This document shows positions 38,797 to 62,051 of a DNA stretch of 64,000 nt, one piece after another (the first letter of the stretch is position 1; every line of letters begins with the position of its first letter). The stretch covers positions 62,001 to 126,000 of the forward strand of contig NZ_JALZWP010000003.1 of assembly GCF_023336755.1 (NCBI RefSeq), given 5' to 3'. The DNA comes from Roseinatronobacter domitianus (GTDB lineage Bacteria > Pseudomonadota > Alphaproteobacteria > Rhodobacterales > Rhodobacteraceae). The notes beneath the pieces are model-generated. The model was not told where the DNA came from. It worked only from the letters and a program-made list of their open reading frames with translations, and ran no database searches. A program made the position numbers and the translations under genes.

Positions 38797-39085
38797 AGAA
38801 CACCTGCCCTTCGGGTTTGGTCTGGCTCCGAGACCCGGAACCGATTCGTTCGGCCACGGCGACACTATCGGCGCATTACGTTGCGATCAGCGCGAGCGCT
38901 TTCTCTGTTCCATTCAATTCAATGGGCAAGCCCCAGTTTCCAGCCCTCCTAAGGCTCTAATACGTCTTGTCGTGGACGCGCATCGGCAGCCCTGAACGCA
39001 TGAACGCGCAAAAGCGGTGCGGAACCGTTGCGAAAAACGCATCCTGCGACCGTGCGTCGCAGTGCATTCTGCCCCTTAAATATTC
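38797..39085. other. Intergenic region before the orphan membrane protein; no gene seen
   Basis: About 290 bases after the hydratase gene with no convincing coding frame, no tRNA and no clear terminator. It becomes sharply AT-rich only in the last 20 bases (from about 39076), where a candidate operator begins. Confidence 0.5.
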
Positions 39086-39105
39086 ATATTCATATTTGTA
39101 AATAT
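39086..39105. promoter_or_regulatory. Candidate ArsR/SqrR-type operator upstream of orphan membrane protein
   Basis: ATATTC (39086-39091), eight bases, AAATAT (39100-39105): 11 of 12 arm positions match ATATTC-N8-GAATAT. It also contains the shorter perfect inverted repeat TCATATTT-GT-AAATATGA (39090-39107). It ends just before AGGAGG (39109-39114) and the ATG at 39120, where a repressor would block transcription or early elongation. The same motif occurs twice in the sox cluster (59608, 62032). Confidence 0.5.
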
Positions 39106-39119
39106 GATAGGAGGGCATC

Positions 39120-40325
39120 ATGTCGACCCGCAAACCATCCGATACCTATTCGCCGCTCTACTTCCTCGCCTCTGTCGGCGCCGGTGGCCTGACGGTGACA
39201 TTCTTCATGTGGTTGATGTTCTGGATTCCGCATCCCGGCAAAACCGTCCCGGTGTTCGAAGACATCATGGCCGCATTCGCCAGCGGCACCCCCATGACCC
39301 AAGCCATGATCGTGACCGCCGTGGCCGGGATCGCGTTCTTTGCCTTTCAGAACATCAAGTTCCTGATCTGGAACCTGCAACGCTACAGCGCATGGCGCAA
39401 AACCGACGCCTTCGCGGCATTCGCCAAGACCAACGCGCAGAGCCAGATGCTGGCGCTGCCCTTGGCACTGGCCATGGCCGTCAATGGCGGCTTCATCGCG
39501 GGTCTCGTCTTTGTTCCGGGCCTGTGGTCGATCGTGGAATACCTGTTCCCGTTGGCAATGGTTGCCTTTATGGCCATCGGTGTTTTGGCCCTGAAACAAT
39601 ATGGTGGCTTTCTGGGCCGCGTGCTGACGGAAGGCGGCTTCAACTGCGCGGCCAACAATAACTTTGGCCAAATCCTGCCCGCGTTCGCCTTTGCCATGGT
39701 TGGTGTCGGCCTGTCCGCCCCTGCGGCGATGAGCACAAGCGCCACGGTTGCCGGCACGTCAATTGCCATCTCGACCTTCTTCCTGATGACAAGCGCGCTG
39801 ATCGCGGTGGTTGCCATGTTCCTTGGTCTGCGTTCCATGATGGAAAACGGTGCAAATGCCGAAACCGCGCCGACGCTGCTTATCATCGTCCCGCTTCTGA
39901 CAGTGCTGGGCATTCTGATGCTGCGCCAAGCGCATGGGTTCGGGGTGCATTTCGGCATTGACGAAGGCGCCGGGGCCACGCTGGCTTTGACCTCTAAGTT
40001 GCTGGCCACGCAAGTCGCCATCCTGCTGTTTGGTGGTTTGGTCTTGGTCAAGCAGGGCTATGCAGGCCGTTTCCTCTTTGGGTCGGAAAACTCTGCCGGT
40101 GCTTATGCGCTTGTCTGCCCCGGTGTGGCGCTGTCGGTCATGTTGCAATTCTTCCTGAATAACGGGTTGGTCAAGGCCGGAATCTTGGACAAGTTTGGCA
40201 TTGCTTTCTGGGCCATCACGGCGCTGGCGATTGCAGCACAAGTCGCGATGATCTGGCTGGTGCTGCTGCTGAACCGTCGCCATTTCAGCGCATCCAACGG
40301 TGCCACGCCCGTCCCGGCGGAATAA
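39120..40325 (+). CDS. Polytopic membrane protein of unknown function
   Basis: 401 residues, about ten hydrophobic segments, no signal peptide. The start YSPLYFLASVGAGGLTVTFF resembles the opening of TDT/SLAC1-like anion channels and transporters, but I see no decisive motif. A conserved-looking block is GGFNCAANNNFGQILPAFAF. I have a weak memory of Rhodobacterales homologues filed as 'TsoY family (seleno)protein'; no in-frame TGA is present here. AGGAGG sits five bases before the ATG. It stands alone, with a candidate sulfur-type operator upstream and its own terminator downstream, so it is likely an independently regulated transporter or membrane enzyme (inference). Confidence 0.8.
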   Translation: MSTRKPSDTYSPLYFLASVGAGGLTVTFFMWLMFWIPHPGKTVPVFEDIMAAFASGTPMTQAMIVTAVAGIAFFAFQNIKFLIWNLQRYSAWRKTDAFAAFAKTNAQSQMLALPLALAMAVNGGFIAGLVFVPGLWSIVEYLFPLAMVAFMAIGVLALKQYGGFLGRVLTEGGFNCAANNNFGQILPAFAFAMVGVGLSAPAAMSTSATVAGTSIAISTFFLMTSALIAVVAMFLGLRSMMENGANAETAPTLLIIVPLLTVLGILMLRQAHGFGVHFGIDEGAGATLALTSKLLATQVAILLFGGLVLVKQGYAGRFLFGSENSAGAYALVCPGVALSVMLQFFLNNGLVKAGILDKFGIAFWAITALAIAAQVAMIWLVLLLNRRHFSASNGATPVPAE

Positions 40326-40344
40326 GCCATCACAGAACGACATG

Positions 40345-40375
40345 ACGCGCGCGGCCCAACCGGGCCGCGCGTTTT
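40345..40375 (+). terminator. Rho-independent terminator after the orphan membrane protein
   Basis: A perfect stem CGCGCGGCCC (40348-40357) / GGGCCGCGCG (40362-40371) with loop AACC, followed by TTTTA. Confidence 0.9.
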
Positions 40376-57857: not shown

Positions 57858-59552
57858 TTAAAGCCCTGTCACTTCTACCGAGTTATTCGGTGACAGCGCC
57901 ACACGACCGATCTTGCGGATATGGTTTTCGACCACGTCCCAGATCTGCGGGCCTTCTGTCCCCTCGTTCACACTTGCCCAACCGCCCACGGTATAGGAGC
58001 GGGCCGGGTCGATCGCATCACCTGTGGACAAAAGCGTCATGTTCGAGATGCGCTCGCCAATCGGCTTCGAGATGTCGATCTTGTAACCAAGCCCGCCCAT
58101 GCGCACCATGTCCCCACCCTGTTGGAAATAGGGGTCCGGGTTAAACAGGTTATCGCCCACATCTTCCAGAACGACTTTCAGGAACTCGCCGGTCATCTCG
58201 GTCCGGTAGCACTGGCCATAGGTCATGCTTGTAACCGAATGGATATCTTCGCGGGTAATCGCGTCGCCCGGCATCAGGCTGGCACCCCAGCGCACGCCCG
58301 GTGACATGGCGATTTCGGTGTCCCGCTCGGACATGATCGCATCGCAGATCAGGTCATCCCAGGTGCCGTTGAAGTTACCCCGACGATACAACAGGCTATC
58401 GGTATGGCCGATGACCTCTTCCAGTTGGTCCTTGAACGGCGCGCGTTCCGCGTCGATCAGGGTGGCCATTTCCGCATCGGGCGTGATGACATCCGAGAAA
58501 ATCGGGATCAGCTTGCTGCGGAAGCCCATCATGCGGCCATCACGGACATCAAGGTCCAGACGGGTCACGAACTTGCCGTGGCTGCCGCTGGCGATCAGAA
58601 GGGTTTCGCCCACGATCACCGGTTCGGGCAACGCGTCATGCGTGTGGCCGGTCAGGATAACGTCAATACCGCTTACGCGGCTTGCCATCTGGCGGTCCAC
58701 GTCAAAGCCGTTATGCGACAGCACGACGACCAGATCGGCCCCCTGCGCGCGCACTTCATCGACCATTTCCTGCATGCGCCGGTCGCGAATGCCGAAGCTG
58801 TATTCGGGGAACATCCAGCCGGGGTTGGCAATGGGCATGTAGGGGAAGGCTTGCCCGATAACCGCGACTTTCGCGCCACCACGCTCAAACCACGTGTAAT
58901 CGGGGAATTCGGCGGGTTCGTCCCACTCAGAATCGAAAATATTCTGGCCAAGGAAGGGGAACGGCAGACCGTCTACGATCTCCATGACGCGGTCGGTGCC
59001 AAAGGTCCATTCCCAATGGCTGGTCATGGCCTCAACGCCAAGCTTGTTCATAACATTGACCACGTCCTGCCCTTTGGTCAGGTAGCTGGTCATAGAGCCG
59101 TGCCATGTATCGCCACCATCCAGCAAGATCGCATCAGGGCGGTCGGCCTTGATCGCCTTGACCACGGTTGCAACGCGGTCCATCCCGCCCATTTGGCCAT
59201 AAGTTTTGCCAAGCGCGACGAAATCTTCGTAGGTCAGGGCATAAGCCTCGGGCGAGCCGGGCTTAAGGTTGAACATCTCGATGAAGTCCTTGCCGACGAC
59301 ATGTGGCGGCTTGCCCTTCACATCGCCCACGCCGACATTCAACTCCGGCTCGCGGAACCAGATCGGCTTCAGATGGGCGTGAATATCGGTGATGTGGATG
59401 ATCGACAGATTTCCGAACGTGTCGAATTTCAGCAGATCATCCTGCGTCAGCGTCTGCTGCGCGGCCAGTTTGCCCCAGTTGCCATAACCGGAAATGCCGT
59501 AGAGCGCAGAAGCCGCGACAGAGGCTTGCAGGAATTCGCGCCTGGAAATCAT
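57858..59552 (-). CDS. soxB: SoxB, thiosulfohydrolase
   Basis: 564 residues. Twin-arginine signal SRREFLQASVA (3-13). Dimanganese-site motifs DIHAH (56-60), GGDTWHGS (146-153) and GHTHD; the SoxB landmarks SHWEWTFG (178-185) and PGWMFPEYSFGIR separate it from plain 5'-nucleotidases. It hydrolyses the terminal sulfonate of SoxYZ-bound intermediates to release sulfate. The ATG at 59552 has CAAGGAGAA upstream; the frame is open to 59669 but contains no better start. A 140-base gap with hairpins and a candidate operator separates it from soxA. Confidence 0.97.
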   Translation of the reverse strand: MISRREFLQASVAASALYGISGYGNWGKLAAQQTLTQDDLLKFDTFGNLSIIHITDIHAHLKPIWFREPELNVGVGDVKGKPPHVVGKDFIEMFNLKPGSPEAYALTYEDFVALGKTYGQMGGMDRVATVVKAIKADRPDAILLDGGDTWHGSMTSYLTKGQDVVNVMNKLGVEAMTSHWEWTFGTDRVMEIVDGLPFPFLGQNIFDSEWDEPAEFPDYTWFERGGAKVAVIGQAFPYMPIANPGWMFPEYSFGIRDRRMQEMVDEVRAQGADLVVVLSHNGFDVDRQMASRVSGIDVILTGHTHDALPEPVIVGETLLIASGSHGKFVTRLDLDVRDGRMMGFRSKLIPIFSDVITPDAEMATLIDAERAPFKDQLEEVIGHTDSLLYRRGNFNGTWDDLICDAIMSERDTEIAMSPGVRWGASLMPGDAITREDIHSVTSMTYGQCYRTEMTGEFLKVVLEDVGDNLFNPDPYFQQGGDMVRMGGLGYKIDISKPIGERISNMTLLSTGDAIDPARSYTVGGWASVNEGTEGPQIWDVVENHIRKIGRVALSPNNSVEVTGL

Positions 59553-59607: not shown

Positions 59608-59629
59608 AATCTTCGTAAGTGTGAATATT
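59608..59629. promoter_or_regulatory. Candidate ArsR/SqrR-type operator in the soxA-soxB gap
   Basis: AATCTTC (59608-59614), eight bases, GAATATT (59623-59629): one mismatch between the arms. It matches 11 of 12 arm positions of ATATTC-N8-GAATAT. It lies 56-77 bases upstream of the soxB ATG, a normal operator or promoter position, which suggests an internal, separately controlled promoter for soxBCDEF. Confidence 0.5.
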
Positions 59630-61426: not shown

Positions 61427-61921
61427 TCAGTATTCGGTCAGGGTGGTCAAGTAAGCCACCACATCTTCAATCTGCTGAGCAGTCAGCAGCGTCGAAAAAG
61501 TTTCGGGATCGTAAGCTTTTGCCGTGTATGCATTTCCGGGACGAATGAAGTCTTCCGGATTATCGTTGTAGAACACGGGCATCATGCTGTCGGGGAAGAC
61601 ACGTTTTGCATTGGCGACAATGCCGCGCAGCTCAGCTTCGGACCAGCGAGCCCCCGTTCCATCAAGAGCGGGACCGACGTTGCCCTGAAATGCGACATCC
61701 GGCATTGCAGAATTTTCATGGCACGCAACGCAATTGCCAAGCGACCTGGCCGAAAGGACCTTCGCGCCCTCCAACGGGTCACCCGGCACACCGGTCAAAG
61801 ACGCCGGAATTGCGATCTCGTCTTCCCAGACGACATCTGCGGGTTTGATCTCTGCGGATGCGGACGCGGCCGCCACGACCATCGTCGTTGCCAATGCTGC
61901 GCGGATGAAACGTGAAGTCAT
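61427..61921 (-). CDS. soxX: SoxX, monoheme subunit of SoxAX
   Basis: 164 residues with a signal (about 4-23, ending ASA). One heme site CVACH (64-68); the distal ligand is likely Met in PDSMMPVFYN. The ATG at 61921 follows GGGAGGACATCC; the frame stays open to 62011 without a better start. It is the first gene of soxXYZABCDEF, behind its own regulatory region. Confidence 0.96.
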   Translation of the reverse strand: MTSRFIRAALATTMVVAAASASAEIKPADVVWEDEIAIPASLTGVPGDPLEGAKVLSARSLGNCVACHENSAMPDVAFQGNVGPALDGTGARWSEAELRGIVANAKRVFPDSMMPVFYNDNPEDFIRPGNAYTAKAYDPETFSTLLTAQQIEDVVAYLTTLTEY

Positions 61922-62031: not shown

Positions 62032-62051
62032 ATATTCTTTTAGTTGAATAA
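62032..62051. promoter_or_regulatory. Candidate ArsR/SqrR-type operator of the soxXYZABCDEF operon
   Basis: ATATTC (62032-62037), eight bases, GAATAA (62046-62051). It contains exact ATTC-N8-GAAT and matches 11 of 12 arm positions of ATATTC-N8-GAATAT. It lies about 111-130 bases upstream of the soxX ATG, immediately after the soxW terminator. In Paracoccus pantotrophus the ArsR-family repressor SoxR binds the soxW-soxX intergenic region; this is the equivalent place. Confidence 0.6.

Follow-up and report, generated by a model that had tools for sequence, protein, structure and literature searches.

Among the systems closest to the locus described here are those controlled by ArsR-type sulfane-sulfur sensors of the SoxR/SqrR/BigR group. 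According to the available portions of two publications (PMC10451225, PMC12423496), SoxR and SqrR sense sulfane sulfur bridging two conserved cysteines, and the recognition site deduced for SqrR of Rhodobacter capsulatus is ATTC-N8-GAAT (available part of PMC9774250). The accessible text of PMC12423496 names pdo, rhodanese, RND, TauE and YeeE among the target classes of these repressors; tsoY is not named among SqrR/SoxR/BigR targets in the available portions of these three papers. The selenoprotein TsoY itself is tabulated, with the motif UxxV, in a 2026 review citing Haft and Tolstoy 2025 (PMC13188914, partial text), and no TsoY function was found in print in the open-licence literature.

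We analysed a stretch of 64,000 nucleotides from Roseinatronobacter domitianus, referred to as the window, in which tsoY is present together with soxB and soxX (Table 1). Genes were called with a simple reading-frame script and their starts set by rule. The sequence ATATTCATATTTGTAAATAT ahead of tsoY carries the palindrome ATATTC-N8-AAATAT and leaves 14 bases to the ATG, exactly as described in the first-pass annotation, which had also assigned it to the same motif as two sox sites. Consistently, the window includes three sites only within one mismatch of ATATTC-N8-GAATAT, those of tsoY, soxB and soxX, with one mismatch each. The first-pass annotation had set its three near-matches against a uniform-base expectation of 0.14; in 100 dinucleotide-preserving shuffles the mean was 0.05 per window and the largest count 1. 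All three sites are non-coding, as claimed, if soxB starts at 59552 and soxX at 61921, both starts being inferred and the longest frames being longer. The right arm of the tsoY site reads AAAT against GAAT in the published core, i.e. ATTC-N8-AAAT with one core mismatch; an arm of AAATAT or ATATTT served in the earliest scans, and GAATAT or RYATTC-N8-GAATRY in later counts. A consensus promoter scan upstream of tsoY detected no promoter. Downstream, the terminator attributed to the gene is backed by a strongly folding hairpin (-28.7 kcal/mol), but this is followed by just four T and is absent from the entries of the terminator scan.

Table 1. Coordinates of the features discussed, in window positions.
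Feature	Position	Strand	Evidence or remark
Second, less perfect copy GCATTC-N8-AAATAT, 22 bp 5' of the main tsoY site	39064..39083	+	
Operator-like palindrome ATATTC-N8-AAATAT, 5' of tsoY	39086..39105	+	Site class conserved in orthologues
tsoY, 401 aa, ten-helix membrane protein, stand-alone gene	39120..40325	+	NCBIfam NF047644, 497.3 bits; model
GC-rich hairpin and four T, probable terminator	40347..40372	+	Folding z -5.05
soxB	57858..59552	-	TIGR04486, 830.8 bits; start inferred from Tat-type MISRREF (59552)
Operator-like site ahead of soxB	59609..59628	-	One mismatch
soxX	61427..61921	-	TIGR04485, 91.8 bits; start at 61921 inferred
Operator-like site ahead of soxX	62032..62051	-	One mismatch

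Since the motif had been defined after the fact, the real test had to use other genomes. TsoY is encoded in 43 of 149 sampled genomes of the bacterial family (one genome per genus). Leaving aside the host itself and G147, whose locus is truncated at a contig end, upstream DNA could be read in 41 (a set of 40, plus G011). The exact motif RYATTC-N8-GAATRY was found within 120 bp upstream in 25 of the 41 orthologues, in 30 when one mismatch was allowed and in 33 with two, and no site within two mismatches was present in the other eight. The search for orthologues lacking the palindrome, proposed in the first-pass annotation as a way to refute its own claim, thus came out in favour of that claim. 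Cores were frequently paired (at most one mismatch, 20-30 bp apart), as observed in 20 of 41 upstream regions, window included, with 19 of the 21 pairs at 24-26 bp.

We settled on the RY form after inspecting the first orthologues. Several controls were carried out on the 40 orthologues, whose proteins are 52-70% identical to that of the window. Shuffling of the upstream DNA left a mean of 0.01 exact sites, with no round of 40 giving more than one. The stricter form ATATTC-N8-GAATAT, known beforehand from the sox sites, was found with up to two mismatches in 28/40, compared with 0.37 in shuffles (largest 2). Among 60 arrangements of the arm letters the true one was matched, within one mismatch, in 18/40 and the next best in 2. 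Similarly, when the spacer was varied from 4 to 12, a spacer of 8 gave 28/40, a spacer of 12 gave 8, and the rest 0 to 2. Across the 40 loci, all 34 exact sites fell within the 4,040 upstream positions, the 541,251 others having none; the corresponding counts were 49 versus 11 with up to one mismatch and 56 versus 109 with up to two.

A second set was drawn from the best 80 of at least 503 named relatives, mostly Rhodobacterales (Roseibaca ekhonensis reaching 90% identity), from which 4 duplicates of the first set and 1 locus without upstream DNA were dropped. Among 70 of its loci, which were not thinned among themselves, 29 carried an exact site, 51 a site within one mismatch and 60 within two. 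No site within two mismatches was detected at the five loci with Desulfobacterota-type titles (Desulfobulbus twice, Desulfovibrionales, Syntrophus and Syntrophorhabdus), all of Cys type. The same was observed near tsoY in L205, a family member met later, and in L207; L206, from outside the bacterial family, has a one-mismatch site. In some palindrome-free orthologues (L053, L054, L055, L057, L058, L135, L159, L161, L169 and L172) an alternative element, GTRAY-N3-GTCACCGWC, lies about 60-85 bp before the tsoY start and perhaps marks a second regulator. Across five genomes the element had five further exact matches, three of them inside frames and two with no called target in range, so that no second regulon was seen.

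We then considered the company of tsoY behind such sites. In the 3.36-Mb host genome, 13 sites match ATATTC-N8-GAATAT with no more than one mismatch. Seven of these are inside reading frames or without clear target; the remaining six read as promoter-proximal, ahead of tsoY, soxB, soxX, a Blh-like dioxygenase, an RND adaptor and a SulP permease. Exact RYATTC-N8-GAATRY occurs at two places only in this genome, before the dioxygenase, which resembles the C-terminal part of Blh (452.7 bits, short of the whole-Blh cut-off of 625), and before the RND adaptor (125.2 bits, cut-off 94.9). A one-mismatch site (L007:1501-1520, C10:49682-49701) is found 84 bp ahead of the gene for the SulP-type sulfate permease (384.2 bits, cut-off 380.45), making this gene a possible further member of the regulon. 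Exact sites are widespread, with at least one in 134 of the 149 family genomes, and all 13 found in each of two of them, G003 and G095, were read individually. The targets in G003 are TauE, an RND-type adaptor, an Mrp-type ATPase, YeeE, a metallo-beta-lactamase-fold dioxygenase, a rhodanese, a rhodanese-like protein, tsoY and a NirB-like flavoprotein, the four remaining sites being inside frames or without clear link. Those in G095 are tsoY (twice), Mrp, YeeE-like, RND-adaptor-like and rhodanese-like genes and a SoxT-like gene at its likely start, with six sites lacking a clear link. The names TauE, G003 adaptor (HlyD type), Mrp, YeeE, dioxygenase and one rhodanese come from Pfam or NCBIfam, and the other target names were given by eye. 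The Mrp-type iron-sulfur carrier ATPase gene, behind an exact site in both genomes (L232:1501-1520, L233:1501-1520), is outside the target list in the available portion of PMC12423496.

SoxB was found over cut-off in 93 of the 149 family genomes, namely in 38 of the 43 with TsoY and in 55 of the 106 others (Fisher p 2.7e-5, ignoring kinship), the latter having SoxB without TsoY. Class-wide, TsoY was over cut-off in 4 of 385 genomes, the host and one more of its family among them; the three besides the host are the sources of L205, L206 and L207. Of the five TsoY genomes in which SoxB was not over cut-off, three (G037, G040 and G076) keep the operator within one mismatch, and non-sox genes carry it as well. 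The label 'sox-type' given to the operator in the first-pass annotation is therefore too narrow. Inspection by eye of the top 40 gene clusters (up to 6 kb, one representative each) revealed no recurrent sulfur gene beside tsoY. In 59 of 121 tsoY loci (4 duplicates included, some loci short) the upstream flank holds an smc-like gene on the other strand, an old neighbourhood with no evident sulfur link.

Which repressor could act on these sites? The operator core in orthologues is the SqrR site ATTC-N8-GAAT, and the host genome holds two proteins of the SqrR/SoxR group. The SoxR gene is located just right of the window (C3:126010-126426, L016:2011-2427), and the gene of a SqrR-like paralogue adjoins a Sulf_transp (YeeE-type) gene. 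Neither protein reaches the NCBIfam BigR cut-off of 155 (65.6 bits for SoxR and 101.7 for the paralogue), so that both names are our own. They have in common SRQAAVSQQLARLR in the recognition helix. Both sensing cysteines are present in the SqrR-like protein and in 28 further aligned relatives; the host SoxR is devoid of them, with Tyr at the first place and none at the second, and has CERDC, so its sensing may differ, as judged from sequence. In G065, which has the operator at two mismatches, the best group repressor is distant (E 1.3e-20). Where the sole repressor at E 1e-15 is beside soxB, the operator is present in three genomes (G007, G024, G126) and absent in three (G017, G035, G134).

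The product of tsoY had been presented as an orphan. This description is incorrect: the protein belongs to NCBIfam NF047644, TsoY family (seleno)protein, over the whole model with the score given in Table 1 (cut-off 150). It falls below the selenoprotein model NF047643 (55.7 bits, cut-off 250), its open frame having no TGA and a Cys at the Sec position, and no Pfam family was over cut-off. This residue, Cys333, belongs to the ninth long helix; each of the 121 aligned Cys-type sequences (4 duplicates) has Cys there, and no other cysteine is invariant in the family alignment. Each of two selenoprotein tsoY genes, both over cut-off, has one in-frame TGA which aligns with Cys333. Next to one of them (L220) are a rhodanese gene (71.2 bits) and the ArsR gene tsoR (126.1 bits, cut-off 115); the other (L221) adjoins a TsoA piece (130.9 bits, cut-off 170), with ArsR-like and DsrE-like frames recognized by eye. 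In a distant phylum (Desulfobacterota) too, the TsoY family is accompanied by an ArsR-type repressor and sulfur-transfer proteins.

An AlphaFold2 model built with 41 sequences (pLDDT 90.2, pTM 0.89) has ten long helices, in agreement with the ten membrane segments initially counted. In a Foldseek comparison with the PDB, TehA and plant S-type channels took the first 21 places (best E 7.8e-4, probability 1.00); the best TehA/SLAC1-type match gave a TM-score of 0.53 by query and 0.65 by target, with an rmsd of 6.0. The earlier suggestion of a TDT/SLAC1 channel is thus upheld at the fold level, but not by profile alignment or Pfam. Kinship with TehA by sequence was not obtained, hhalign being not significant and a search with the TsoY profile giving no PDB TehA match. 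The window protein has no match to Pfam SLAC1 (PF03595), and weak matches in 3 of 41 members (18.2-21.8 bits, below the cut-off of 27.9) span most of protein and profile. We consider it likely, on the basis of the model, that TsoY adopts the TehA/SLAC1 channel fold. The gating residue of TehA is Phe262 on TM9 (available text of PMC11050165), and PDB chains 3m73, 3m74 and 3m75 differ at the letter matching it. A relaxed, forced full-length hhalign placed Cys333 onto Phe262, but with a probability of 0.37% this is no more than a hint. Separately, on a plasmid of Thioclava sp. FTW29 (L287), a TDT/SLAC1 channel gene sits 12 bases ahead of one annotated as encoding a TauE/SafE sulfite exporter, an arrangement which hints that TDT proteins of Rhodobacterales carry sulfur anions.

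Since the switch is kept before tsoY in many related genera, tsoY is very probably part of the reactive-sulfur response, as a member of the sulfane-sulfur (SqrR/SoxR-type) regulon. An ArsR-type sensor of the SoxR/SqrR/BigR group would bind the palindrome ahead of tsoY and repress its promoter. Persulfide or polysulfide would bridge the sensor cysteines, and the sensor would leave the DNA. Derepressed tsoY would then be expressed along with sox, dioxygenase and RND genes and, in relatives, also with rhodanese, YeeE and TauE. TsoY would act as a ten-helix TehA/SLAC1 (TDT) channel or exporter passing a small sulfur anion across the inner membrane, with the TM9 thiol of Cys333 at or near the gate. 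We give this whole reading, a SoxR/SqrR-type-repressed tsoY encoding a sulfur-anion channel or exporter with sulfite as a first guess, a probability of roughly 0.6. Several observations count against it: the eight family orthologues, L205 and the five Desulfobacterota-titled loci with no site inside two mismatches, the imperfect site of the window, the 55 genomes having SoxB but not TsoY, the sensing cysteines missing from the host SoxR, the TDT link that falls short of significance by profile alignment and of the Pfam cut-off, and the negative promoter scan. The site, its conservation, the shared regulon, the family, the fold and the invariant Cys/Sec were computed; the repressor chemistry and the SqrR site were taken from papers.

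Persulfide dioxygenase makes sulfite, and the yeast TDT protein Ssu1 exports it. Sulfite export by TauE and YeiH has moreover been described in this setting (available portion of PMC12423496). For these reasons sulfite is the best single guess for the cargo of TsoY, tentative as it is and somewhat short of even odds. More speculatively, TsoY could be a SLAC1-fold channel in which the TM9 gate Phe is replaced by Cys/Sec, whose reaction with sulfane sulfur opens the pore or carries the cargo, which we find rather doubtful.

The main rival, because of the Cys/Sec, leaves tsoY in the same regulon and gives its product another job, the handling of sulfane sulfur, either by uptake of thiosulfate or polysulfide or by relay of a sulfur atom through the membrane via a Cys333 persulfide (Sec in some anaerobes). 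The replacement of the invariant Cys by Sec, the rhodanese gene and, by eye, the DsrE-like frames adjoining selenoprotein tsoY, and the presence of the same operator on YeeE genes all agree with such a role. However, the fold is that of anion channels, and a relay of the YeeE/TsuA kind probably uses several cysteines, whereas the family alignment offers a single invariant one; we regard this job as unlikely, while keeping it as the first to be considered beside the sulfur-anion channel.

Other possibilities concern the operator itself. It could serve another ArsR-type sensor, for a metal or metalloid, its likeness to the sox sites being a mere ArsR family resemblance: seven frames of the host genome have Pfam HTH_5 matches, tellurite-resistance proteins are known to have the TDT fold, and the NCBIfam name of TsoR is that of a metalloregulator. 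This would leave unexplained a core identical to the SqrR site, the sulfur-type genes behind exact sites in G003 and G095, and the recognition-helix sequence common to SoxR and the SqrR-like protein, so that we judge it improbable. Alternatively, the site of the window lineage could be decayed or a chance AT-rich match, with regulation persisting only in orthologues. One arm indeed deviates from GAAT, and the exact motif is absent from the window and from its close relatives L094-L096 (84-90% protein identity). Nevertheless, these relatives keep both half-sites at an unchanged position (-34), with no more than one mismatch to RYATTC-N8-GAATRY, and the soxB and soxX sites are equally imperfect, making a lost or fortuitous site very improbable. 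Repression of tsoY by a sulfane-sulfur sensor, with a sulfur-anion channel as its product, remains our preferred reading.

The conserved sulfane-sulfur operator links the named (seleno)protein family TsoY to a defined signal and to partner genes, which makes its function directly testable. Were TsoY to export sulfite, its place would be the step that follows persulfide dioxygenase. If the thiol-gating proposal is true, the signal derepressing tsoY via SqrR/SoxR would also act on the channel itself, and a Cys/Sec gate would be a new way to control an anion channel.

Compared with TehA, TsoY has 13-14% identity and bears its Cys/Sec in TM9, the helix that carries the gate Phe262 of TehA. With the selenoprotein TsoY of Desulfobacterota it has in common the Cys333/Sec position; theirs has an ArsR (tsoR) neighbour and clustered sulfur-transfer genes, whereas the window tsoY stands alone. 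With the SqrR/SoxR/BigR regulon, the TsoY orthologues share ATTC-N8-GAAT, and the dioxygenase, rhodanese, YeeE, TauE and RND genes behind such sites match its target classes; the window site differs as ATTC-N8-AAAT.
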